This document shows positions 5,224-63,741 of a DNA stretch of 64,000 nucleotides, piece by piece. How positions within the stretch are numbered: position 1 is the stretch's first letter; each line of letters starts with the position of its first letter. The stretch is from Fidelibacterota bacterium (lineage in GTDB: Bacteria > Fidelibacterota > UBA8477 > JABMPR01). Under the pieces are notes generated by a model. It saw only the letters and a program-made list of their open reading frames with translations, was not told the origin of the DNA and ran no database searches. The DNA is taken from positions 124,001 to 188,000 of the forward strand of contig JAIPJM010000001.1 of NCBI GenBank assembly GCA_021734255.1. Reading direction: 5' to 3'. Both the position numbers and the translations under genes were made by a program.

Positions 5224-7593
5224 CTAGAATGAGAATCCAGTCTCGATGACCGTGGAGCTGATCACCTCATCTGACCCTGCGTCTCTATCGATCTCACCGT
5301 CGCCATCCAGGTCACGGAAAGTCGTACGCATGTCCCAGGTCAGGGTGGCACCGCCACCAAGTTCGAACACAACCTTATAACCCATTAGGGTTCCTTCGCT
5401 ATAGATATCGAAGGGGTCATCCACATTCATGCGATTCAGGTAGGCCGATGCCCCAGCCAGTTTTGGCACCAGGTCTTTAGCCAGATCAATGGACCCATAG
5501 ATACCCTTGACAGGATCAGCGCCATCCTGGATCATGTGCTGATAGGCGCCATTCACCGTGACCAGACTGAAAATATCCACGCTCAACATACCAAAGACAC
5601 CCTGCATGGGTGTTGTGTTCAGCATTCTGGCATCACGGGTCAGTGGCTTCATGATCTCACCATTGTTGAAATACTGCATGGCAACACGATCCAGATCATA
5701 GTTCTGGTCCATCAAACCGAAGACAAAATTCTCTCCGGTCATGCGGTATTCGAGACCCAAATGGATGAAACTAAACAATGAGGCACGGATACCAGGAATG
5801 GTGACCCCCCAACCATGCTTGACCTCTGTTGAGTCCAAGCCGTTTGCGACGTTGAAGGTATATTCATGGTGATCACCCATATACATACCGGCCTCAGTAA
5901 AGACAAGTATATCCAGGATCTTATTGCTGAAGACCGGATAGCCCACATCAACACTGACACCCAGCAGGGTGGAGCGTTTATCCTTTAGATTAAAGGGGTT
6001 AGGCTTCACATCAGCACTATCGGGATCTTCCCAGAGCACACCAGGAAATCCATCAACTTCACCATCGTTGTTGAGGTCGAGACCTAGCTCGAGGATGTTA
6101 TCATTATCCCGGTCATAATCACTCTTATCTTCAATTCCATCACCATCGGAATCCAACCAGGCTGTATCATCATCAGGGAAATCATCCACGATGTTCGGAC
6201 GGCCATCATCGTCATCATCTTTGAATCCATTGTACTGGTTGATATCGACAGCTGCCGTTACACCAAACTGGAGTTTGCCCAGGCTGTAAGTTGTTCTTAA
6301 ACTTGCAAGTCCAAGCTCTTTGACATTGGCCCACATGGCTTCGAAACCCAGGCTACCCCGGGTAAAGCCCACATGGGTACCGATCTTGCGAACAGAAGGA
6401 TATTCCATCATGTTGTTATAGTTGTTGACGAACATACCATACCCGATGACCACCTTTTCAAGTGTACCCACTCGGATGTATAGTGGATCCTCTGGCTGTC
6501 CCCAACGGACATACATGACCTTATCCGCAATATTCTCTGCTCCTTGCCATTTTTCCCAGACGACATCCCCGTCCTGGTTCATATAAAAGACCAGGTCAAG
6601 TCCGATACCCAGTTTTCCGATGGAAATATCGGGTCGCAAGGCGATCTGGTTATAGAGCACACCATCGATCGTTACAGCGCCAAGAGCACCGTTCATGGCC
6701 AGCGCATCACCAAACAAACCACCACCCTCACTTTCAGGCTCGGTATCTTCTTCAGGTTCCGCTTTCGGAGCAGGCGCTGCTGGCGGGGGTGTCGTTGTTA
6801 CAACAGGCGTCTCCTCGTCAACGGCGGTATCATCAACAACGGGCTCATCTACTGTTTCTTCTTCAGTCGCAACAGAGTCAGAGGCGGCTTCTTCATCCTC
6901 CCCTTGCTCTACCTCGCCAATCCCCTCTTCAGGATCTTCAGGGATACTGCCCTCTTCAGTAGGGTCGGTCTGAATGTAGCCGTCTGTGGTTGAGTTGACG
7001 GTTTCGCCGGCGCCGGCAGTACTGATCATGCCAGTCAGGTTGTTCATCACATCAACAACTCCCTCAAGGACGATGACATTATCACCCTCTTCCGGGTCAG
7101 AGATGGTCCAGAACTCAGTCCCCTTGATAGAGGCAACGGAGGTCGGTGTGTGCAGTTGAAATTCAAAGTCTGCACCTTTCGTATATTTTGTAAGCGCCTG
7201 ACCATAGTCGAGCCTGACGTGATAGGCTGAACCGCTAAGGTCTTCAACCATTGTGATCGCTACTTCCGTGTTCTCACGAAGTTTGACCTGGCTCTTATCG
7301 TCCAGGAGCAGCATGACGGCAAATCCGTCATTGACCTTGATCTGGTCGTTGGTTTCCAGGATCGTACCCATGACAACAGCCTGATCATAGTCCATTGCTT
7401 CTGCTTTTTGTAGCAGAACATCCCCCTGAACCCTTGAAATGACAGCTACTTTGTCAGCAAAAGCAGTAAAGGCGATCAGGGTTGACAGTAAAAAAGTAAC
7501 ATTTTTTCTCATCGGCGAAGTCCTCATATTATGGTCCTTGATCAAATCAATCTGATTCAGTACGGAATTTAATGGCTTGAAATGGTGCGCCAA
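5224..7593 (-). CDS. FecR-domain protein fused to a putative outer-membrane beta-barrel with Asp-rich Ca-binding (TSP3-like) insertions
   Basis: Signal peptide RKNVTFLLSTLIAFTAFA; FecR-like region (LHTPTSVASIKGTEFW); acidic/Pro linker; DSDGDGIEDKSDYDRDND repeats; C-terminal ...ETGFSF. Likely start is the internal Met-Arg-Lys near 7512. Confidence 0.75.
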   Translation of the reverse strand: MAHHFKPLNSVLNQIDLIKDHNMRTSPMRKNVTFLLSTLIAFTAFADKVAVISRVQGDVLLQKAEAMDYDQAVVMGTILETNDQIKVNDGFAVMLLLDDKSQVKLRENTEVAITMVEDLSGSAYHVRLDYGQALTKYTKGADFEFQLHTPTSVASIKGTEFWTISDPEEGDNVIVLEGVVDVMNNLTGMISTAGAGETVNSTTDGYIQTDPTEEGSIPEDPEEGIGEVEQGEDEEAASDSVATEEETVDEPVVDDTAVDEETPVVTTTPPPAAPAPKAEPEEDTEPESEGGGLFGDALAMNGALGAVTIDGVLYNQIALRPDISIGKLGIGLDLVFYMNQDGDVVWEKWQGAENIADKVMYVRWGQPEDPLYIRVGTLEKVVIGYGMFVNNYNNMMEYPSVRKIGTHVGFTRGSLGFEAMWANVKELGLASLRTTYSLGKLQFGVTAAVDINQYNGFKDDDDDGRPNIVDDFPDDDTAWLDSDGDGIEDKSDYDRDNDNILELGLDLNNDGEVDGFPGVLWEDPDSADVKPNPFNLKDKRSTLLGVSVDVGYPVFSNKILDILVFTEAGMYMGDHHEYTFNVANGLDSTEVKHGWGVTIPGIRASLFSFIHLGLEYRMTGENFVFGLMDQNYDLDRVAMQYFNNGEIMKPLTRDARMLNTTPMQGVFGMLSVDIFSLVTVNGAYQHMIQDGADPVKGIYGSIDLAKDLVPKLAGASAYLNRMNVDDPFDIYSEGTLMGYKVVFELGGGATLTWDMRTTFRDLDGDGEIDRDAGSDEVISSTVIETGFSF

Positions 7594-7654
7594 GCCTTTT
7601 CCCGAGCCAGGGCACGCGATTACTTACCAGTCATAAAACCTAAAAACACTGCGC

Positions 7655-8434
7655 TTATAGCAGTGCAGCGACAAGAAGAACCATCATAAGTCCCAGGATC
7701 AAGCCCCGGTTACGTTTTGTGCTTTCTTCATCCTGCGGCTCTACTGGCTCAGCTTGACCGCTTGCATCATCCGGAGCATCAGGTGTTGGAGTTATAGCCC
7801 CGAACGAATCATCCGGATCTGGATCTTCAGGAATAGAACCTGCTTCTGTGGGGGCAGACTGCACGTTTCCATCCGGTGTTGAGCGAATACTCTGACCGGC
7901 GGTAGCTGTGCTGGTCGTACCGGTAAGGCTATTCATTACGCTCACTTCACCCTCCAGCACGATCACGTTATCGCCAGCATCGGGGTCGGAGACTGTCCAA
8001 AAGGATGTTCCCTTAACAGAAACAACAGATGTAGGCGTATGGATATTGAAACTGGTGCCAGGGACGGGAGTAAAGTTTGTCAAGGCTTGACCGTAATCCA
8101 GGCGTAGGTGGTAACTTGTGCCACTCAGGTCCTTGACCATAGTGAAGGCGACTTCTGTGTTTTCGCGAAGTTTAAATTGACTTTGATCATCCAGCAGGAG
8201 CGCGACTGCAAACCCTTCATTGACCCTGACTCGGTCATTGATTTCCAGGATCGTTCCTTTGACAGCAGGCTGGTTAAAGGTTTGTGCATCCGCATTGCGC
8301 AGCAGCACCTCCCCGTTTGCTTTCGATACAATAGCCACTTTTTCGGCAAAAACACCCGTGGCCAGGAGGGTTGACAGTAGCAATGCAGCAAGCTTTTTCA
8401 TTGGCGATATCTCCGGATCGGCTATTTTGATCAA
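7655..8434 (-). CDS. FecR-domain protein with C-terminal TM (paralog of the preceding gene)
   Basis: Closely parallel N-terminus (FAEKVAIVSKANGEVLLR...HTPTSVVSVKGTSFW); likely start MKKLAALLLSTLLATGVFA at about 8401. Confidence 0.78.
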   Translation of the reverse strand: MIKIADPEISPMKKLAALLLSTLLATGVFAEKVAIVSKANGEVLLRNADAQTFNQPAVKGTILEINDRVRVNEGFAVALLLDDQSQFKLRENTEVAFTMVKDLSGTSYHLRLDYGQALTNFTPVPGTSFNIHTPTSVVSVKGTSFWTVSDPDAGDNVIVLEGEVSVMNSLTGTTSTATAGQSIRSTPDGNVQSAPTEAGSIPEDPDPDDSFGAITPTPDAPDDASGQAEPVEPQDEESTKRNRGLILGLMMVLLVAALL

Positions 8435-38019: not shown

Positions 38020-39696
38020 ATCGTTTCTCAGCAAGCACAGTTATTATTTCGCGTCAAGCGCCAGAACCTGAGAGGGTTTCTTTCCGACGTCTTTAAAAAG
38101 AAGCGCCTGGAGATCCTGGTCTCCACCCTCATCGTGACCGGACTCATTCTGGGTGGCTATCGCCTGCTGATCTCCGGCGGCGAGTTTCTGCTGCGGCAGG
38201 GAGAACTGGGTGAGGTCTTTCTGGATCGGATGTTTTATCTGGGCTGGTCCATTATTTTCTATCTGCTGGTCCTCTCCAACCTGATTACCGGTTTTTCTAC
38301 TTTTTACCGCTCACCTGAAGTGGCTTTTCTTTTCACTCTGCCGGTGGAAACTGCGCAGATATTCAAAGTGAAATTCACAGAGAATCTGGTCTATAGTTCC
38401 TGGGCCATCCTCATTCTGGGGATTCCCATGACCCTGGCCTATGGGGAATTACAGGGCCTGTCCGCTCTGGCGTACATCACCGTCTTTATTACCGGTATTC
38501 TGCCCTTCCTTTTTATTGCCACCGTGACGGCATCCCTGCTGTTGGTCCTGCTGGTCAACCTGTCCCGCTTCTTCAAGATGCGCACCCTGTTTATCAGTCT
38601 TGGGTTGATCTTCACTGGCGCCTTCTACCTCTACTTCACCGTCAGTCAGCAAGACACAGTGGTGGGCGGTCAACTGGGTAACTTCAGGGCCCTGGGCCGC
38701 TATATGGCCAATTTGTCCAGCACACCCTTCCCCTTTATTCCCAGCTACTGGCTGAGCAAACTATTTCTGGATTCTGAAACGCTCCAGTGGCTGGAACGGC
38801 TTTACTTTTCAGCCCTCTTCATCACCACGGCCCTGGTGGGCTGGGAGGTATCCCTGGGGGTTGCCAGGATGCACTATTTCACCTCTTATCAGATCATGGA
38901 GCGAACCGGTGGCGGCGCTATTAAAAAGGGTATGAATCGCATCTTTACACTTCCCCTGATGGGCTTGCAGCGGCCGATGCAGGGGTTGCTTGCCAAGGAT
39001 TTTGTTCAGTTTCTAAGAACGCCGCAGCAATGGGTGCAGTTTCTGCTCATGGGTTTTTTCATTAGCATCTATCTGATCAACCTGTCCAGGGGGCGCGTCC
39101 ATTTTCATGACCTGTTGCCTATATGGCAGAACGCCATCTACGTGTTCAACTTTGGCTTCACCGGGTTCATCATGGCTGCTCTGACGGCCCGCTTCGTTTA
39201 TCCCATGGTCAGTATGGAGGGCCGCAGTCTATGGATCCTGCGAGCTGCACCCTTTTCCATGCGTCAGGTCTTCCAGGAGAAATTCTGGTTTGCATTTTTC
39301 AGCCTGTTCACCCTGGCCGAGATCGTGGTCATGGTTTCCAATTATTTTCTGGGACTTCAAGCGGAGATCGCCGTGATCGCCAGCGGGTTCATGCTTATGA
39401 CAAGCTTGTCGCTGATCAGTTTATCTCTGGGACTGGGGGCGGTCTATGCGCAATTCGACGAACCCAACCCCATGAAGGTGAGCAGCGGTTATGGTGGAAT
39501 CATTGCCATCGTACTCAGTCTTATTTATGTTTCATTTTCCGTCCTGTCGCTGGTGTTTGTGATTCGCCTGTACCAGGGAGATGGAAGTGGCTGGCTTATC
39601 GGCGTCACGGTTGCCTTTGTGGTGATCTTGACCTTCCTGTATACCTGGTTGCCCCTGCGCTGGGGTTTGCGATCGCTTGCCACTTACGAACCGTAA
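38020..39696 (+). CDS. ABC transporter permease; apparent non-canonical ATC start at 38020
   Basis: Reading frame is open from 38005 (after TAG at 38002) and encodes VSQQAQLLFRVKRQNLRGFLSDVFKKKRLEILVSTLIVTG; first ATG/GTG/TTG is GTG 38134 inside the first TM. Confidence 0.8.
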   Translation: MVSQQAQLLFRVKRQNLRGFLSDVFKKKRLEILVSTLIVTGLILGGYRLLISGGEFLLRQGELGEVFLDRMFYLGWSIIFYLLVLSNLITGFSTFYRSPEVAFLFTLPVETAQIFKVKFTENLVYSSWAILILGIPMTLAYGELQGLSALAYITVFITGILPFLFIATVTASLLLVLLVNLSRFFKMRTLFISLGLIFTGAFYLYFTVSQQDTVVGGQLGNFRALGRYMANLSSTPFPFIPSYWLSKLFLDSETLQWLERLYFSALFITTALVGWEVSLGVARMHYFTSYQIMERTGGGAIKKGMNRIFTLPLMGLQRPMQGLLAKDFVQFLRTPQQWVQFLLMGFFISIYLINLSRGRVHFHDLLPIWQNAIYVFNFGFTGFIMAALTARFVYPMVSMEGRSLWILRAAPFSMRQVFQEKFWFAFFSLFTLAEIVVMVSNYFLGLQAEIAVIASGFMLMTSLSLISLSLGLGAVYAQFDEPNPMKVSSGYGGIIAIVLSLIYVSFSVLSLVFVIRLYQGDGSGWLIGVTVAFVVILTFLYTWLPLRWGLRSLATYEP

Positions 39697-52002: not shown

Positions 52003-53048
52003 GTGAATAACCATAGGACAATTCGTCTACTGATAAGCATGCTGACCCTCATCGGTCTGATGGGGTGTGCCATGCCCACCAAGGTCCGGATGCATCCTGA
52101 TCTTGTCAATGAACCGGGAAAGATCAAAACGATCACCCTGCTCCCCATCGATGCGCAGGTGAAAAAGCTGGAGCTATCCAGTACAGGTGAGCGAGATCAG
52201 GAGAAAGAGTTGGAGATCATCGAACAAAGCTCCCTGGTCATCCCCAATATCCTGAGCAGTCAGGGCTACCAGGTCACACCATATATGATTCCCTATGACG
52301 CTGTAGAATCAGAATTATTTCACCAGAACTATGACGAACTGCGGGCTGCTTATTTCAGTGAAATGCCCCGCTTGTATGACGGCCAGAAAGTGAGCTGAAA
52401 AAGGTAGCGGATCGTGCGGTGCAGATCAACCCCATCCACCTTTCCTTCCTGTCAGATGATGCTTCAGATGCGCTCCTGTATGTCAGATACGAAGGGTTCA
52501 AGCGCTCCGGTGGTTCAACAGCCGCAGGTGCGGTTGGCGGGGTCGCTCTGGGATTGCTGACCGGCGTTGTAGTTGTTCCTGTACCAGAAGGGGGCGGCTT
52601 TCAGGCGGCTCTGATCGAGAAGGGTACGGGAAAGATCCTGTGGAATAATATTGCCAACGAAGGCAGTTATTCCATGGAGAACAGGCTGGAATCTCTGCTG
52701 GACAAATTTCCCCTTCAGGGCGCAGACCTTTCGCTCAGCATTGGCCGGGGCAAAGCGGTTGAAAATTCATTCCGGGTTGAAGATCATGGTTTTGATAATA
52801 AACCCCTTCCCGTTCCAGGCGAAGACCGGGTGCTCCTGGATGATGGGCAGGAGTATCTGGGTGAGGTCATCGATGTTTCCAAGCAGAACTACATGATCAA
52901 GCAAGGCCGGGTCCTGTATATCATTGCTAAGGACCGGGTGGTCCAGTGTTCAATTGCAGGTAACGCGCTTAGTTTTGAGGAGGCCCGCGCGATCGATTTC
53001 CCCAGAGTGAACTACAATTCTTTTGCTGATCGGATAACGATCTACTAA
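52003..53048 (+). pseudogene. Lipoprotein gene split by a -1 frameshift near 52385-52395
   Basis: ORF1 (LMGCAMPTKVRM...LYDGQKVS*) and ORF2, whose frame extends upstream as SELKKVADRAVQINPIHLSFL, join into one protein with a 1-nt correction. Confidence 0.7.
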
Positions 53049-53129: not shown

Positions 53130-53174
53130 TTAGGGGTTAGACGTTCGGTGTTAGACGGAACCCCTAACCCCTAA
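53130..53174. repeat. TTAGGGGTTAG...CTAACCCCTAA inverted repeat
   Basis: Perfect 11-bp arms with internal GTTAGAC copies. Confidence 0.75.
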
Positions 53175-53413
53175 CACCTATCGCCTATCCCGAATAAGGG
53201 CTCGTATAATTGTCCATTGTTATTACTTTATCGCATCAATTATGAACAGCTCGAGAGGAATATGGCGCAAGGTCGAGGCATGCTGTGGTGATATGCTATC
53301 CAGACCTCTGCGAGAAAATTTTTACTGCGAATTCATACGGGAGTTATACATAAAAAACTATAGAGCACGTAGTTAGCCAGTCAAAAATGGATTGTACTGT
53401 TAAAGGGAGGACA

Positions 53414-54589
53414 ACGATGAAGTTTGGAGTCAAATTCTATTCTGATGACGAGGAAAAGAAATTACAAAAAACAGGATTGCATAGCCGTTTCAAACACCTT
53501 GTTGATAATGGGTTCGAATGTGGTGAGAATGATTTATTGTCATATGGTATGTTCAGAGAACATAAGGATGCTCCAGGATACAGGAATTACAGCGAATTGT
53601 CAAAAAAAGCCGATTCTAGACGCGAAATCATACAGGATTATTTTGAACTAAATTCTGGTCATCTCCGATCAATATTTAACCGTGGTGAAGATAGTGACCC
53701 TTGGGTGACGGAAATGATGGGTGTGGGCGCGGGTCTTGCATTGTGCAGTGAAGCCTACGGACTTACTGAGGCCGATTGGCAAAAAATTCCCATTAGTGGT
53801 GAAAAAGACCTCGACTTCGAGATAGCAGCCACCGGAAGTGATTTTGTTAAAATGGAAGCGAAAGGAACAATATATAAAAATTCAAATGACCGAAAATCTC
53901 TAGCTGGTCACGCGTCCCGTGTTCGAAAAAAGAAGGAACAACAAAATGTAAAGCATCCTAGCTCAAGTTTGATTGGGGTTATTACGGCATTTCCAGAGGA
54001 GCAAGAAGATCCCTGCTGCTACCTGATGGATCCACCTGCTCCAAACATTGAATGGGATCCAGCCTTCTATCGCATTGTAGCTAGACTCTATTACTACTAC
54101 AAAAACATTCATAGTGTACTAAAATCACACATGCTTATTGCTCTTATAAATCGAATCCATGATATGATTAGCATAGGTAGCTACAAAGAATTTGAGGGTA
54201 AACCACTTCTGAATGTAAATGGGAATCCCTTTAAGGTGCCCAATTCCGCCTATAATTTACGAACGAATATTTTAGGGGAATCCTTCTGCGAAGTTTTTCC
54301 AATCTCGAATCGTGAGGGTGAGGCTTTTATATGGGGTATGGACTACAGCATCCTATCGCTTTTGGTAGAACAGAACTTCGAAGGAATCCTTGAATATTCA
54401 AGCAAGCTATCAAAAAGTTATTCAGGAACAACTATCGCTAGAGTGACTCTCCAGAACGCAAAAAGACTCGGGATAAAACCTAATTCTGAGAATAGTATTG
54501 GGCGAAATCGAATTGCCGTTCCATGTAAAATAAAAGTAATTCGAAACACAGCGGGCAAGGTGTTTGGTCTCATACAAGTTGCTGGCTAA
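53414..54589 (+). CDS. Cassette 1: PD-(D/E)xK nuclease-like protein of unknown function
   Basis: GEKDLDFEIAATGSDFVKMEAKG resembles the D-x(n)-ExK core; ORF open from 53387; stop lies inside attC R''. Confidence 0.55.
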   Translation, partial: TMKFGVKFYSDDEEKKLQKTGLHSRFKHLVDNGFECGENDLLSYGMFREHKDAPGYRNYSELSKKADSRREIIQDYFELNSGHLRSIFNRGEDSDPWVTEMMGVGAGLALCSEAYGLTEADWQKIPISGEKDLDFEIAATGSDFVKMEAKGTIYKNSNDRKSLAGHASRVRKKKEQQNVKHPSSSLIGVITAFPEEQEDPCCYLMDPPAPNIEWDPAFYRIVARLYYYYKNIHSVLKSHMLIALINRIHDMISIGSYKEFEGKPLLNVNGNPFKVPNSAYNLRTNILGESFCEVFPISNREGEAFIWGMDYSILSLLVEQNFEGILEYSSKLSKSYSGTTIARVTLQNAKRLGIKPNSENSIGRNRIAVPCKIKVIRNTAGKVFGLIQVAG

Positions 54590-54710
54590 CAAAGGATTAG
54601 AGCGGACACACAAATCGATCGGGGGCACGATAATTGAACAACAAGTATAAACGGTTATCAACATGGACTAGTTGCTCCACCAAAAGCAACTAAAGCATAA
54701 AGCGTTAGCT
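54582..54710 (+). other. attC site of cassette 1
   Basis: R'' CTGGCTAAC (54582-54590); R' GCGTTAGCT (54702-54710); internal GTTGCT..AGCAAC hairpin. Confidence 0.75.
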
Positions 54711-54733
54711 AGACAAACCAAAAGGGGCAGGCG

Positions 54734-56548
54734 ATGAGATTACGTTCAAGAATTATTTTATTCTCAATTGAGCTTTTTGTCATTCTTGTTGGATCTTGGT
54801 TAATCACGGGATCATGGATATCGGTTGAGTCATGGTTTGGCGCTCTTGTAGCATTAGCAATTAACTTTTTCTTACTTGAACCATGGTTTTCAAGACCGGT
54901 TGATACTTTAGCAAATTCTATTGTCTCTCTGATATTGGTAGCTGTTGCGGACAAATCCTATTCTGCCTATGGATGGAATATTTTTACGGTATTTCTAATT
55001 GTCGGGGTAGTTATTTCTCTACTGGCAATATTATTAAATCAATATCCAAATGCTAAACTTCATGGAACAAGTCAGTTGTTCTCAAAGCTGTGCAGAATAT
55101 TTACTGCGGGAAAATATTACACAGGAATATACTTTTTAGCTCTAATAGGTCTTCATCAGCCAATTGAGATAGAATTTTGGTATCTAACTTCTCTGTGGCT
55201 TATAGTTGTCACAATCCCTCTCTTGCCGTTTCAAGATTTTTTAAAAACTCATGGTGTTGACAAATACGATTTAGCCATTGAAAATTCTGTAAGCCCCAAT
55301 AAGATTCTTCTTAATGCTCAAACTCTTCCTGCACTGGGTAGGGTAATCTCGTTAACCGCAAATGGAGTTGAGTGGGACGGAGTGATAACTGGTCGAATAG
55401 TTAGGCCCAAAAACATATGGGGTGAAATTTCTTTATTTAATGCAGAGGATCTTGAGAAAGCAACTCAGTCAAGTCCCATAATCATTGATAAAAATGAAGA
55501 AATTCACCAAAATATTCTTGGTTCAGTAGATGTAGGCTCAACTCAAGATGTTATTGTCTTCTCTCCACTAATGCCGATCAGAATTGGTGATGTAGTTTTT
55601 GTAAATACTCCCGATGGTGAAGTTTTCTACCAAGTTGCAAGAGGTGAAATTGCAGATAAAAAAGTGCAAGGGGGGGGCAGAATATTTGAGAAGGCAGTCG
55701 CAGTACAGCTAGGAATATTTAACTCAGAAAACCAGAGAATCTCGATACGAGGCTGGACACCCCCACCAGGAGAATTTGTTCGAAAACCGAATGTTGATGT
55801 GCCTAATATTTCTGATGATAATTGGGTAAATAAAAGAAAGCTGGGCGCTATTATTGGAACAAATATACCCGTGTATTTAATAAAGCGGAACCTGCTTGAG
55901 GGGCATCTCGCAATGTTGGGGATGACAAGGATGGGAAAAACTACATTGACTCGAAAAATAGCTAATTTCTACAGTACAATGGCAAGTGTAATCATTTTTG
56001 ACCAAACAGGTGAATATATTTCAAAATTTGGGCTAACACCTTATGATCCAGCTGTACATATATCTAAACCAGGAGTGAGCGTATTTGAACCGGCACCAGC
56101 AACAGTAGTTCCTGATGAGGGACTAAACCAATTTAAAGATATACTAAATACAGCGTTGCTAGAGTACCGTGCTGGGAAGCAATTTAGACGCGTGATCATT
56201 ATTGATGAAGCTCACCAATTTGTACCAGAACCTACAATGTTAGGTTTCAATATGCCAGGGCGTGAGAGCTCCATCACATTTGGTATGTATATGATGCAAG
56301 TTCGTAAATATGGAATTAGTGTTGTTCTAATTAGTCAAAGAACTGCTGTTGTAGCAAAAAGTGCACTTTCTCAGTGTGAAAACATCATTGCCTTTAAAAG
56401 TGTCGACAAGACTGGACTTGATTATCTCAATTCCATTTTGGGTCCTGAGTCAGCTTCAGTACTCCCGATACTTGCACAGGGTCAAGCACTAGTTTCTGGT
56501 CCTGCATTTTCTTCTGATCATGCAGTTGCTGTTGATGTGATTGAATAG
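54734..56548 (+). CDS. Cassette 2: membrane-anchored HerA/DUF87-like ATPase
   Basis: N-terminal TM helices; Walker A GMTRMGKTTLTRK; Walker B RRVIIIDEAHQFVPE; SVVLISQRTA. Confidence 0.85.
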   Translation: MRLRSRIILFSIELFVILVGSWLITGSWISVESWFGALVALAINFFLLEPWFSRPVDTLANSIVSLILVAVADKSYSAYGWNIFTVFLIVGVVISLLAILLNQYPNAKLHGTSQLFSKLCRIFTAGKYYTGIYFLALIGLHQPIEIEFWYLTSLWLIVVTIPLLPFQDFLKTHGVDKYDLAIENSVSPNKILLNAQTLPALGRVISLTANGVEWDGVITGRIVRPKNIWGEISLFNAEDLEKATQSSPIIIDKNEEIHQNILGSVDVGSTQDVIVFSPLMPIRIGDVVFVNTPDGEVFYQVARGEIADKKVQGGGRIFEKAVAVQLGIFNSENQRISIRGWTPPPGEFVRKPNVDVPNISDDNWVNKRKLGAIIGTNIPVYLIKRNLLEGHLAMLGMTRMGKTTLTRKIANFYSTMASVIIFDQTGEYISKFGLTPYDPAVHISKPGVSVFEPAPATVVPDEGLNQFKDILNTALLEYRAGKQFRRVIIIDEAHQFVPEPTMLGFNMPGRESSITFGMYMMQVRKYGISVVLISQRTAVVAKSALSQCENIIAFKSVDKTGLDYLNSILGPESASVLPILAQGQALVSGPAFSSDHAVAVDVIE

Positions 56549-56674
56549 CTAGCTAACAAAAGTTTAGAGCTGACTCACCAACGTGAAGTGGTGTAGGAAT
56601 AAGATAAAACAGAACAATCAATTTGTGATTATCGATGCAGTTTTGGGAAGCAGCTCAAACTCAGAGCGTTAGGC
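56549..56674 (+). other. attC site of cassette 2
   Basis: R'' CTAGCTAAC; L'' AGTTTAGAGCTG pairs with L' CAGCTCAAACTC leaving one extrahelical A; R' GCGTTAGGC; CACCA..TGGTG terminal hairpin. Confidence 0.85.
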
Positions 56675-56680
56675 TTAACT

Positions 56681-57457
56681 ATGAATGATCGAAACATATT
56701 TTACAGTGGCTTTACAAAGAAGCATACTCCGGATTGGAAATGTCCGACTTGTGGCAAGGGTAAACTAACTCTTCAGGCTGAGACTCTACGCTTTGATGAA
56801 ACAAGAGAATCCAAGGATACAAGATGGCCCAAACCTGAAAGTGAAGTACATCCTACAGATATAAAATATGTATATGCATGTTTGTTTAAGTGTTCGAGGA
56901 CGAATTGTGGGGAGATTGTTTCAAGTTCTGGACGCGGAACCAATATTGGTGAGCCAACTTGGGATGAGAAGGGAGAGGACTATGAGGAAGTATTTTTTGA
57001 GTACTTCGAACCTAAAATATTCATTCCTCCTCTAATACTATTTGAAATGCCTAAGCAAATACCAGAGAAGGTCAGGCATGAACTGCTTTTCTCTTTTGGT
57101 TTCTTCTTTGTCGATCCGAAGGCTGCAGCTAATCATGCAAGGATGGCTCTTGAATTGTTGCTTGATGATCTAAAGGTCAATAGGTTTGAGGTTAAGAACA
57201 GAAAAAGGCGGATGCTTTCCCTTCATAAGAGAATCGAGTTACTTTCCCCAAAATATGAAGCAATTCGAGAGCTCTGTTTTGCAATTAAATGGTCTGGTAA
57301 TGCTGGCAGTCACAGCAGAGAAACCTTGAGTAAAGAAAATATTCTGGATATATACGATATAATGTCGAGCATATTTACAACCTTGTACGATCAGGAGCAG
57401 AAAAGAATAAATAAGCTCGCAAAGTCCATACATAAAAACAGGGGGCCGAAAAGGTAA
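56681..57457 (+). CDS. Cassette 3: N-terminal Zn-ribbon plus DUF4145-like domain protein
   Basis: CPTCGKGKL...CSRTNCGEI; NHARMALELLLDDLKV...RKRRMLSLHKRIELL...IKWSGNAGSHS. Confidence 0.75.
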   Translation: MNDRNIFYSGFTKKHTPDWKCPTCGKGKLTLQAETLRFDETRESKDTRWPKPESEVHPTDIKYVYACLFKCSRTNCGEIVSSSGRGTNIGEPTWDEKGEDYEEVFFEYFEPKIFIPPLILFEMPKQIPEKVRHELLFSFGFFFVDPKAAANHARMALELLLDDLKVNRFEVKNRKRRMLSLHKRIELLSPKYEAIRELCFAIKWSGNAGSHSRETLSKENILDIYDIMSSIFTTLYDQEQKRINKLAKSIHKNRGPKR

Positions 57458-57473
57458 GCCTAAGGCGTTAGGT
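57455..57473 (+). other. Collapsed attC-like junction (cassette 3/4)
   Basis: TAAGCCTAA-GGC-GTTAGGT: R'' and R' separated by about 3 nt. Confidence 0.6.
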
Positions 57474-57483
57474 GTGTTTAAGC

Positions 57484-58119
57484 ATGCAGAAGTTTAAAAT
57501 TAAGATTCAAGATGATAGTGACACTGAGCCAAGAGAAATTGCTATAATGCTGGACTCCAAAAACATTAGTATCTTAAATAATTACCTTGAATATTCTGAA
57601 CACTTGTTTGCATCAGAATTCCTAAAGGTCGCGAATGACACTTCCCTGAAATTTGGGTGGAACAAAGACGAGGGCTATACGACAACCTATACTCTTCCTC
57701 CCAATGAAATGATTGAAGCATTCCTTCATCGCTTACGTCCATTTGTGCTCAAAAAGGAAGACACCCACTTCATGAAAGTATACGGTATAATCTCAAAGAA
57801 CATAAACGATCAGTCTATTCGAGCCATTCTAAAAGACACTCGCCAATACTGGGAGGGAGAGAAAATCCAACAGCTTTTTAAAATATCCGACAATGACGGT
57901 ATTTTAAACTCGCATGACTCATTAATGAAATTCCTAAACGCCTATGAGTATCACCGAGACAAGGAGAAAGCAAAAAGATTTGCTAGTATTCAAGAGATGT
58001 TCGGTGGCAAGGACGGCCTAAAGTCTTTTTATCTCTTTATGCTGACTGATATCGCTCAAGCCATCGGGAAGCTTGCTGGCATAGTTGAAGTAATTTTAAA
58101 AAAGCGCGATAAATATTGA
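57484..58119 (+). CDS. Cassette 4: hypothetical protein
   Basis: 211-aa ORF from ATG 57484, bounded by cassette boxes. Confidence 0.65.
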   Translation: MQKFKIKIQDDSDTEPREIAIMLDSKNISILNNYLEYSEHLFASEFLKVANDTSLKFGWNKDEGYTTTYTLPPNEMIEAFLHRLRPFVLKKEDTHFMKVYGIISKNINDQSIRAILKDTRQYWEGEKIQQLFKISDNDGILNSHDSLMKFLNAYEYHRDKEKAKRFASIQEMFGGKDGLKSFYLFMLTDIAQAIGKLAGIVEVILKKRDKY

Positions 58120-58134
58120 GTTCAGTACAACAGG

Positions 58135-58158
58135 AAACACACCTAACAGCTTATAGGT
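58135..58158 (+). other. Collapsed attC-like junction (cassette 4/5)
   Basis: AAACACACCTAAC-AGC-TTATAGGT; R'' is the 13-nt reverse complement of the cassette 4 start. Confidence 0.65.
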
Positions 58159-58164
58159 ATATTA

Positions 58165-58758
58165 GTGAATTTCTTTAAACAATCCATTTTGATCACCATA
58201 CAGGGACTAATATTTCCTGTGCTGGTGACGATGATAAGTGCTGTCGGAGAAGGAAAGTCTGGTGAGGAGAACAGCTTTATAAAATCATTTGCATCAAATG
58301 TACTAAACTTTATTACCAACCACTGGCTACTACTTGTTATTATCTTTTTTTTGTCATTAGTAGCACTTCTAATTCGACTAAGAATAAGAAGTATCAGGAG
58401 ATTCCGCGATAATTCAATCATTCCAATTGCTATCTCACGGGGGGGAAGATACATAAAAGCTGGATACTTTGAGCATTCGAGTGTGTTGTGGCTTGTTACC
58501 TATCCCACACCCTGGGATCCTACGGATTTAAAAAACCCAAATCCCGATGAGTACGAAATAGACTTAATTCCATTTTGCCCACATTGTGAAGTTGAATTAG
58601 AAGAGGAAAAGAGATTTCTGTCTGGCTATAAGTGGTCTTGTATAAATTGTTCTTTTAAAAAAATAAGCGATTTCGACAGATCAATCATGAGCGATCGGGT
58701 TGAAAAGATTTTCAGGTCCTTAGCTAGAAAGAATAAAGCGAAGGTTAGGAAAATATAA
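58165..58758 (+). CDS. Cassette 5: two-TM protein with Zn-ribbon
   Basis: TM segments near residues 8-25 and 53-70; CPHCEVELEEEKRFLSGYKWSCINC; GTG start. Confidence 0.65.
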   Translation: MNFFKQSILITIQGLIFPVLVTMISAVGEGKSGEENSFIKSFASNVLNFITNHWLLLVIIFFLSLVALLIRLRIRSIRRFRDNSIIPIAISRGGRYIKAGYFEHSSVLWLVTYPTPWDPTDLKNPNPDEYEIDLIPFCPHCEVELEEEKRFLSGYKWSCINCSFKKISDFDRSIMSDRVEKIFRSLARKNKAKVRKI

Positions 58759-58913
58759 CTAAACACCTACCAAGCGTGTGCTGCAGACTCAGAAGGGGAG
58801 ATTACTTAATGATTATTATATACAACTATACAGAAAAGAAAGAAATGGGGTTGTGCTGCAAAAGCGCGGACCGTCGTGTGTATTATCAGGCAAGAATTTA
58901 CCAAAGAAACGGA

Positions 58914-60326: not shown

Positions 60327-61877
60327 CTAGCGAACCGAAATGTAGGTCTTGCTACTTTCGTTCCCCAGCCGATCCAGCGCTGTAACCGCCACCCTGTCCA
60401 GGGTTTCTGGCATCTCCATCTCCTCCTCTGATTCTGAGCGTAAGGTCAAAGGCACGCTCAGGGTGAGGTGCTCAGATGTGAGGATCTCATAGTACCAGTT
60501 ATCCCCTCGCTGCATGTAGACGATCCAGGCATGGACATCAGATTTGTCCTCATGGAGCCAGTGGATGTTGGCGTTGCCGTCAGACAGGTCCAGCTCCACC
60601 AGGGGGGCTGCCGGGGCTTCGTTATCCAACCAGGGTGAGGGCGGTACCAGGGCCCGCTGCTTATAGGGACCCGCCAACAGGATGTCAGCGAACCCGCCGT
60701 AATTCTTCTGTAAAGCCTTCATTGAGAAATGGACCACACCGGGACCGTCCGGCACCATGCCGCGGGTGATCATGATCTGGGAGAAGCGTTCGTTGGCACC
60801 CGCTTCATCTTTGATCCGGCTGGTGAAAATGCCGGGCCAGAGATTGCGGTCATGGGTGTTCTGACCCTTCCACCAACCCAGGAGCACAGGAAAACTCTGG
60901 GGGATCTGGCGTGTGGGCCAATACAGCTGCGGTGTCCAGTAATCCACCCAGCCTTCATTTAGCCACAGCTTGGCATCTGCATATAATTTGGCGTACTGGT
61001 CATAGCCCATAATGGAGGGCGGGTTGCCGGGACGCCAGATCCCAAAGGGACTGATCCCGAACTTGACCCAGGGCTTCTCAGCCTTGATGCCTTTATAGAC
61101 CCGCTCCACGAAAACGTTCACATGATGGCGACGCCAGTCCTCGCGACTCATGGTACCGCCGGCATTCTGGTAGCCTTCCCAGGATCGGTCATCAGGGAAT
61201 TCTCCTGAACCGTAGGGAAAGAAATAGTCATCGAAATGAACCCCGTCAATGTCGTAGCGCTTGACCACATCCATGATCACATCAAAGGAATGATTCTGGG
61301 TGCCCGCCATGGTGGGGTCCATCCAGAGGTAGCCATTGTCCACTTCCCGGACCAGTTCCGGTCGGGTGGCGGCGATAGAGGTTTCATTCCGTTCGCCCTT
61401 GGGATGATGGGCCCGATAAGGGTTGAACCAGGCGTGGAGTTCGATGCCGCGTTTATGGGACTCTTCCACCCAGAACTCCAGGGGATCATAAAAAGGGACC
61501 GGCGGCATACCCTGGGCTCCGGTGAGATAATAGGACCAGGGTTCCAGCTCGCTCTCATACAGGGCGTCGCACTGGGGGCGGACCTGAAAAATAATGGCAT
61601 TCAGGTTCAGGATGGCGGCGCTGTCCAGAATCAGCAGCGCTTCCGCTTTTTGCTCCTCGGTGGTCAGGCCCGGTTTGCTGGGCCAATCGATATTGGCAAC
61701 GGTGGCCACCCAGGCGGCGCGGAATTCCCGGGGGACCTCAAATTCTCCTGTAGCAGGTGCAGGAGGCGCGATAGGAGGGCTTGGAGCTGGTGATGGTTTG
61801 GGTGTAGAGCAGGCCAGAATGGCAGTGATTACGATCAGGGTTAGCGTGGTGCGGACAAGCCAGATAGATTTTTTCAT
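60327..61877 (-). CDS. Family-10-like glycosyl hydrolase lipoprotein (DUF187/GHL10 type)
   Basis: EFRAAWVATVANIDWPSKPGL, NAIIFQVRPQCDALY, HAWFNPYRAHH, DGVHFDDYFFPYG; lipobox ILAC. Confidence 0.9.
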   Translation of the reverse strand: MKKSIWLVRTTLTLIVITAILACSTPKPSPAPSPPIAPPAPATGEFEVPREFRAAWVATVANIDWPSKPGLTTEEQKAEALLILDSAAILNLNAIIFQVRPQCDALYESELEPWSYYLTGAQGMPPVPFYDPLEFWVEESHKRGIELHAWFNPYRAHHPKGERNETSIAATRPELVREVDNGYLWMDPTMAGTQNHSFDVIMDVVKRYDIDGVHFDDYFFPYGSGEFPDDRSWEGYQNAGGTMSREDWRRHHVNVFVERVYKGIKAEKPWVKFGISPFGIWRPGNPPSIMGYDQYAKLYADAKLWLNEGWVDYWTPQLYWPTRQIPQSFPVLLGWWKGQNTHDRNLWPGIFTSRIKDEAGANERFSQIMITRGMVPDGPGVVHFSMKALQKNYGGFADILLAGPYKQRALVPPSPWLDNEAPAAPLVELDLSDGNANIHWLHEDKSDVHAWIVYMQRGDNWYYEILTSEHLTLSVPLTLRSESEEEMEMPETLDRVAVTALDRLGNESSKTYISVR

Positions 61878-62048: not shown

Positions 62049-62247
62049 TACCATTATATTAGTTATATTTTATCAAAACAAACAAAATGCCATCGAATTA
62101 GTATAAATATACCATTATAGTGGTGTTTAGAAGACATTTTTATGGAATTGGTGTAAATATGACGATAGTGTACCGGTTTAATGATATATTCTTGACATTA
62201 AATGGTGAAATGATTATATTTGATTGAATATTTACAATAAAATGGTA
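62049..62247. promoter_or_regulatory. Putative HipB operator cluster
   Basis: TACCATTATA at 62049-62058 and 62110-62119; inverted TAAAATGGTA at 62238-62247. Confidence 0.45.
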
Positions 62248-62253
62248 CAAAGT

Positions 62254-62466
62254 ATGAATGCTAAAGAACTGGGGAAGCGGATCAAACAGCGCAGAAAAAC
62301 GTTGGGGCTCACCATCAGAGAGCTGGCTGATCTCACAGGATTATCCAAGACCACCATCTCGCAGGTGGAGCAAGGGAGTGGGAATCCGACGCTTGAGGTG
62401 CTGTTTGAGATCTTTGAATACCTCAACCTGGAAATGCGAGTCGAAGTGAAGGATCTGGAGGTCTGA
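62254..62466 (+). CDS. hipB: HipB-like XRE-family antitoxin/repressor
   Basis: HTH LGKRIKQRRKTLGLTIRELADLTGLSKTTISQVEQGSGNPTLEVL. Confidence 0.88.
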   Translation: MNAKELGKRIKQRRKTLGLTIRELADLTGLSKTTISQVEQGSGNPTLEVLFEIFEYLNLEMRVEVKDLEV

Positions 62467-62468
62467 CT

Positions 62469-62813
62469 GTGGAGTCGGTGAAAAGACTTGAGGTCATCTA
62501 TAAGGGCAAAGTGAAAGCTGGAGAACTCTGGGTAGATGATGATGGTTTTCATTTTGAATATGACGATGCCTTCAGGGAGGATGTTAGCACGCGACCTATT
62601 TCGGTCAATATGCCCAAAAAGCGAAAGTCGTATCAGTCCAACACTCTGTTCCCTTATTTTAGGTCCATCCTCAGCGAGGGTGAAAATCGAAAGCAGATCT
62701 GTAAGGCCTTAGGAATTGATCCCAGCGATGAGTGGAGCCTGCTGGCTATGACCTGTCAATATGATACCATTGGGGCAATAACAGTGAGAAGCAAAGATCA
62801 TGGCACAGTGTAA
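62469..62813 (+). CDS. hipS: HipS-like (HipA N-terminal subdomain) protein
   Basis: VIYKGKVKAGELWVDDDGFHFEYDDAF...NTLFPYFRSILSEGENR; overlaps hipT. Confidence 0.8.
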   Translation: MESVKRLEVIYKGKVKAGELWVDDDGFHFEYDDAFREDVSTRPISVNMPKKRKSYQSNTLFPYFRSILSEGENRKQICKALGIDPSDEWSLLAMTCQYDTIGAITVRSKDHGTV

Positions 62814-63741
62814 TGGCTGTCTGAAGGACAATATCGACGGGTTCTGCAGTGCCTGCGAAACCGCCCTCTTTGACCGGTCAAAGGTCTCTCCTCAACTCAC
62901 ATTCAATTGGGAGGATATTTCAAAAAGAATCGATGGCCAGCCCATGGGCTTCAGTGTTTCCGGTATTCAACGGAAAGGATTTGTAGGTAAGCCGAGAGGA
63001 CTTGAACTGGTGCCCAAGTTGGATGTGAATGCACCATCTCAATACATCATTAAGCCCATGCTATCTCAATTTGATCAAGCCCTTGAATCGCCAGCAAACG
63101 AACACGTGACCATGCAGATGGCCAAACAGCTTTTCGGGATCAGAACGGCTGCGTGTGCCTTTATGAGCTTTGCCAATGGCGCGCCAGCATATCTCACGCG
63201 ACGCTTTGACTATAATCAGGATGGCGAAAAACTGAACCAGGAAGATTTCGCTTCCGTCTTGCAGGCCGACGATAAATACAAATCAAAAACCTATGGGGAT
63301 GTTGGTGAAAGCTTGAGTCCGCTGGACAAAATAAATTTTCTTAGAATCCTTATATTCAATTTCCTTACGGGTAACGGAGACGTTCACCTTAAAAATATTT
63401 CCCTGCTGGAAACGGCAGATGGCGACATGATGCTCTCCCCCGCTTATGATCTGATGAACACAAAACTCCATCTCAGAGATAACCTGATGGCACTGAACCT
63501 GTTCAAAGAGCTGGAGCAGACCAGCTTGCCGCTAGGTGAAAAGTACCAGTACTCCCTGAAAGACTTTGTCGAATTTGGCAGGCGGTTGAACATAAAGAAA
63601 GCCAACATCATCAGAACGATCGGACAGTTCAATAACAAAGAGCATGAGATGTCGGCCATGATAGACCGATCGTTTTTATCTGAAGCAGCGAAAAAACTGT
63701 ATACGGATAATGTTCTGGACAATTATCGAAGATTGGGCTAA
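62800..63741 (+). CDS. hipT: HipT-like Ser/Thr kinase toxin
   Basis: SVSGIQRKG Gly-rich loop, YLTRRFDY, NFLTGNGDVHLKNISLL catalytic loop, LSPAYDLMNT. Confidence 0.88.
   Translation: MAQCNGCLKDNIDGFCSACETALFDRSKVSPQLTFNWEDISKRIDGQPMGFSVSGIQRKGFVGKPRGLELVPKLDVNAPSQYIIKPMLSQFDQALESPANEHVTMQMAKQLFGIRTAACAFMSFANGAPAYLTRRFDYNQDGEKLNQEDFASVLQADDKYKSKTYGDVGESLSPLDKINFLRILIFNFLTGNGDVHLKNISLLETADGDMMLSPAYDLMNTKLHLRDNLMALNLFKELEQTSLPLGEKYQYSLKDFVEFGRRLNIKKANIIRTIGQFNNKEHEMSAMIDRSFLSEAAKKLYTDNVLDNYRRLG

Follow-up and report, generated by a model that had tools for sequence, protein, structure and literature searches.

A block of AT-rich genes in the chromosome of an uncultured marine bacterium, a member of Candidatus Neomarinimicrobiota, is close to certainly an integron cassette array, and probably represents what is left of a chromosomal integron beside its own attI, from which intI was deleted and in which the array subsequently decayed. 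The genome analysed consists of 2.87 Mb in 59 contigs and is 91.3% complete; the window, the whole stretch of 64,000 nucleotides under analysis, is positions 124001-188000 of the 230-kb contig C14 (G000:C14:124001-188000). A preliminary description had proposed a CALIN-like cassette array without an integrase in a chromosome of the FCB group, and this proposal is supported by attC homology, covariation and genus specificity. The low GC content that it had reported was also observed, the value being about 50% across the window and falling to 38-42% over 53-59 kb. The features of the region are as follows.

53323-53375, plus strand: attI-like site with the first junction, G53372^TT, at its end, identified by similarity to the attI of G016:C140
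53373-54704, plus strand: cassette 1, ORF 53387/53417-54589, with GTTAGCCAG at 53372 and CTGGCTAAC at 54582
54582-54712, plus strand: attC1, with R'', L'' and R' kept and the L' box degenerate; model R1 89.4 bits, alignment A1
54705-56668, plus strand: cassette 2, ORF 54734-56548, predicted HerA/DUF87-type ATPase
56549-56677, plus strand: attC2, well-formed R''-L''-L'-R' with extrahelical base; R/L scan, model R1 106.4 bits
56669-57467, plus strand: cassette 3, ORF 56681-57457, DUF4145 protein
57455-57470, plus strand: attC3 remnant, R'' fused to L'-R' with the middle missing; TAAGCCTAAGGCGTTA against R'' TAAGCCTAAC and genus L'-R' AAGCCTAAGGCGTTA
57468-58160 (3' end approximate), plus strand: cassette 4, ORF 57472/57484-58119, with GTTAGGTGTGTTT at 57467 and AAACACACCTAAC at 58135 matching exactly over 13 nt
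58135-58147, plus strand: attC4 remnant, R'' only, no R' following
58165-58758, plus strand: fifth AT-rich ORF of low GC, a candidate cassette at most

Four cassette junctions were located at G53372, G54704, G56668 and G57467. Cassette 1 runs from G53372^TTAGCCAG to CTGGCTAAC (R'' box 54582-54590), cassette 2 from G54704^TTAGCTAG to CTAGCTAAC (56549-56557), cassette 3 from G56668^TTAGGCTTA to TAAGCCTAA (57455-57463, the final C missing), and cassette 4 from G57467^TTAGGTGTGTTT to AAACACACCTAAC (58135-58147). The boxes lie where the preliminary description had placed them. It had taken such self-matching between the start and the R'' box of the same cassette as diagnostic of cassettes and unlikely by chance four times in a row. 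Three exact self-matching 9-mer pairs were observed in the region against 0.39 per shuffle, with a maximum of 3 in 200 shuffles, so the rule alone is suggestive and falls short of proof. The same rule is also true, cassette by cassette, in most of the arrays of relatives, and together with the attC homology described below it makes the evidence for cassettes decisive. Among the five genes originally assigned to the array, four are in cassettes but the fifth has no cassette boundary, neither an R''/R' pair nor a cassette start being detected for the ORF at 58165-58758; this ORF may be a cassette fused through a deletion.

A strict scan for RYYYAAC/GTTRRRY gave no site, and a relaxed R/L scan recovered attC2, with 11-bp L arms and one extrahelical base, together with six consecutive attC sites of 124-126 bp adjoining intI on contig C140 of the genus mate G016 (L051). 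In alignment A1 both attC1 and attC2 are of the same type as the G016 sites, and on this comparison they are homologous to attC sites beside an intI. Only attC1 and attC2 are intact in outline. The pairing of R''-L''-L'-R' with an extrahelical base is found in attC2; the L' box of attC1 is degenerate, and attC3 and attC4 lack this organization. When the bottom strand was folded, attC2 formed the expected stems and attC1 retained the R stem and lost the L stem. A covariance model, R1, trained on nine attC sites, gave the hits at attC1 and attC2 that the preliminary description had called for (54581-54713 and 56548-56677), both sites being among the nine. Likewise, a 24-base pattern for the attC start, TAACAAARGNTTAGAGCKGACWCA, had been designed on these two sites together and hits them by construction, and therefore the window hits of neither the model nor the pattern are independent. 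Outside the window, model R1 detected sites in 16 of the 24 genomes searched, 14 of the genus (this genome included) and two of the same order. Most members of the genus have similar sites. In 85,462 species genomes the pattern matched 14 stretches; 13 of them bear the label Neomarinimicrobiota/Marinimicrobia, and the other belongs to a 'Bacteroidetes' bin. Viral contigs gave no match to it. L095 (JAERTD010000069.1), a Bacteroidetes bacterium by its record title, contains three attC sites of the Neomarinimicrobiota type, either as a misbinned contig or through transfer. Among 56 distinct attC sites the stems covary, with 34 double-changed cells against 5.7 after shuffling (0 of 500), and 93% of the cells are paired in register versus 20-42% when slid. 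An Rfam scan yielded no match.

Two of the attC sites are remnants. Although an R'' box does lie behind each of the four genes, as had been described, attC3 is not whole and attC4 is without its distal half. At 57455 the R'' to be expected there, TAAGCCTAAC, runs via the common AAGCCTAA directly into the L'-R' end of the genus, AAGCCTAAGGCGTTAG, giving TAAGCCTAAGGCGTTAG; attC3 apparently collapsed by deletion between these 8-nt repeats. A terminal attC without the distal half was observed at all three cassette loci of this genome, on contigs C14, C22 and C43.

The product of cassette 1 showed no significant match in Pfam, PADLOC, NCBIfam, PHROGs, plasmids, phages or 244 other genomes of the phylum, and its predicted structure, with a mean pLDDT of 33.9, is too poor to be of use; a D...ExK-like motif, noticed by eye, is an unproven candidate. 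The product of cassette 2 is, as judged from its matches to Pfam DUF87 (4e-11), PADLOC HerA (3.4e-20) and HerA structures in PDB, a HerA/DUF87 ATPase. Its nearest HerA relative, on a Bradyrhizobium plasmid, has no annotated nuclease as neighbour on either side. Cassette 3 matched Pfam DUF4145 (4e-15) and PHROG 1305 (2.3e-22) and has relatives on plasmids, and the cassette 4 protein has one plasmid relative at 31%. Integron cassettes are known to carry defence-type genes. Some of the contents found here appear defence-like, namely the HerA ATPase in the window and, on contig C22, an OLD-like nuclease together with a restriction-modification protein of the Bpu10I type.

The sequence in front of the first cassette carries evidence on the origin of the array. 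The site at 53323-53375 is 80% identical over 53 bases to the attI of G016:C140 (E 5.5e-5), the sequence directly before G53372 being ACATAAAAAACTATAGAGCACGTA and that before the first G016 junction ATATAAAAAACCGTAAAGCACGTA. In fixed register, 23 of 27 positions agree with the G016 attI at G53372, and the next best of the 753 GTTR anchors in the window reached 13 of 27. The approximately 50 bases before G53372 are attI-like and a putative docking site, so that, by similarity, an attI stands next to the first cassette; rather than a random off-target cluster, the array is then probably a vestige of an integron sitting at its own attI. When a 79-base query from G016 was compared with 243 genomes of the phylum, the best four matches after itself were G005:C359, G012:C69 and contigs C14 and C43 of this genome; among all these attI-like sites, a detected intI adjoins only that of G016:C140. 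The attI copies share a short frame, MELYIKNxxARS, the first codons of which differ by synonymous changes; the window copy has CGG instead of ATG, and the copy on C43 is broken by an insert. This putative mini-frame crosses attI into the first cassette (window 53323-53375; L051, L163, L165 and L166), and is possibly comparable with ORF-11 of attI1. Just 5' of attI, at 53130-53190, there is an inverted repeat of CCCCTAAC-like units, of which no further copies were detected in the window.

No integrase gene accompanies this attI. None had been seen in the window, and the same is true of the entire contig C14 and of the rest of the genome, the best match to TIGR02249 being 128 bits against a cut-off of 265; since the assembly is 91.3% complete and divided into 59 contigs, an IntI may lie outside it. 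IntI above the cut-off was detected in 11 of 18 genus mates, and two kinds could be distinguished, a group of 61-99% mutual identity and the IntI of G016:C140, which is 43-49% identical to that group. On G016:C140, intI is divergent from the array, and intI, attI and the six attC sites lie on one piece; the window attI matches this kind of integron. Within the first group the array is visible in G007, G012 and G013, where it follows intI at the 3' end and has the same orientation ('inverted' type). Contig ends are often close to intI in the genus mates that were examined, and in several mates besides these three the 3' end of the gene faces a nearby contig end. The resident intI neighbourhood is common to G009 and G007 alone.

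Two further cassette loci without intI were detected in the same genome. On C22 (L164, 7032-11180) there are two cassettes, one for an OLD-like ATPase-TOPRIM protein, the other for a methyltransferase-Bpu10I fusion. One attC is whole (113.5 bits, outside the training set) and the last is truncated; no attI-like sequence was seen, and off-target insertion is possible. On C43 (L163, reverse strand, 5900-8200) an attI-like site bearing a short insert is accompanied by a trypsin-like cassette, one attC and, as the last site, a truncated attC. The start of its first cassette mismatches its own attC, suggesting fused cassettes. Some of the C43 sequence further upstream of attI also occurs between intI and attI in G016.

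The window locus was found in no genus mate. The orthologues of 38230-39696 and 60327-61877 are direct neighbours in G003 and G008, indicating that the segment of 39.7-60.3 kb is absent or elsewhere in these genomes. For the upstream neighbour at 52419-53048, a search of 59 other genomes gave no relative, so that synteny offered no readable empty site. At 62224-63741 an AT-rich gene order HipB - HipS-like - HipT (PF07804 HipA_C) was noted, resembling a HipBST toxin-antitoxin module.

Based on these observations, the following course of events may be proposed. Cassettes would have entered attI one by one, through an IntI that cut at G^TT and brought attI together with the bottom strand of each cassette's attC in its folded form. 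A later deletion would have taken intI and most of the intI-attI interval, leaving about 50 bases of attI (53323-53375). Decay would then have followed, with loss of the L' pairing in attC1, collapse of attC3 between the 8-nt repeats and loss of the distal half of attC4. We infer past insertion, the loss of intI by deletion and, barring an IntI that acts in trans, present immobility; no remnant of intI was detected beside the window attI, and for this reason a former intI at that position can only be inferred. The manner of integrase loss is the uncertain part, the identity of the array is not.

Loading in trans, by an IntI from a complete integron missing from the assembly, would make the attI site a satellite that never carried intI. 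The occurrence of attI-like sites without a detected intI at several loci (C14 and C43 of this genome, G012:C69 and G005:C359), the C22 cassettes without attI-like sequence, which fit off-target insertion, and the incompleteness of the genome all agree with this explanation, which we nevertheless consider rather unlikely. The sequence shared between C43 and the G016 intI-attI interval is as expected from intI loss, G005:C359 sits at a contig end, and we know of no mechanism that spreads attI alone. A distributed integron, in which attI sites of the genus are dispersed on the chromosome as docks without intI and are loaded in trans by one or more present or past IntI, is given little weight. 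It is also improbable that a rearrangement split intI from the array and left it on another, unassembled piece. The variability of the 39.7-60.3 kb segment, as seen from the adjacency of the flanking orthologues in G003 and G008, and the frequent position of intI close to contig ends in the genus mates examined are in agreement with such a split, but there is no direct trace of a breakpoint, and the 230-kb C14 is intact here without IntI. An ordinary AT-rich island with repeats matching by chance and no integron was rejected as extremely improbable, since the self-match rule, which alone is just modestly above chance, is joined by the attI, the attC homology, the genus specificity of TAACAAARGNTTAGAGCKGACWCA, the stem covariation and the self-matching R boxes in the arrays of relatives.

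The array belongs to a known kind of element. A CALIN is a cluster of attC sites lacking integron-integrase (IntegronFinder 2.0, PMC9024848), the criterion being two or more attC sites with less than 4 kb between them (PMC9668308); the window has attC sites at 54582 and 56549, about 2 kb apart, and no IntI on contig C14. Unlike the usual CALIN, this array has an attI-like site, which is evidence on its origin; IntegronFinder seeks attI in class 1 alone (PMC9024848). The intI of a complete integron is absent from this assembly. The integron of G016:C140 (MAG BH29) has the same attC type and attI as the window, but it retains a divergent intI and six intact attC sites. The integrons of G007, G012 and G013 also have this attC type near intI, and differ in the inverted-type array, in the sequence before the first cassette and in an IntI 43-49% identical to that of G016:C140. 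Off-target cassette insertion sites are termed attG (PMC12901181, PMC11023631); such insertion resembles the window in lying at G^TT outside a complete integron, and could fit C22, but the left flank in the window resembles attI, in contrast to the unrelated flank of an attG. The additions to the known kind are the retained attI, the intact relative and an apparent absence of earlier accounts for the phylum: no report of integrons in Neomarinimicrobiota was found in the open-access literature searched, itself incomplete, and the phylum list of PMC8618304 does not include it.

Off-target insertion, intI loss and rearrangement stand as open alternatives for the origin of CALINs (PMC8618304). With attI kept, intI gone and an intact relative in the genus, the present array speaks concretely for a loss or separation of intI, and attI at arrays without intI offers a way to sort other CALINs. 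The array also points to integrons in a phylum seemingly undescribed for them.
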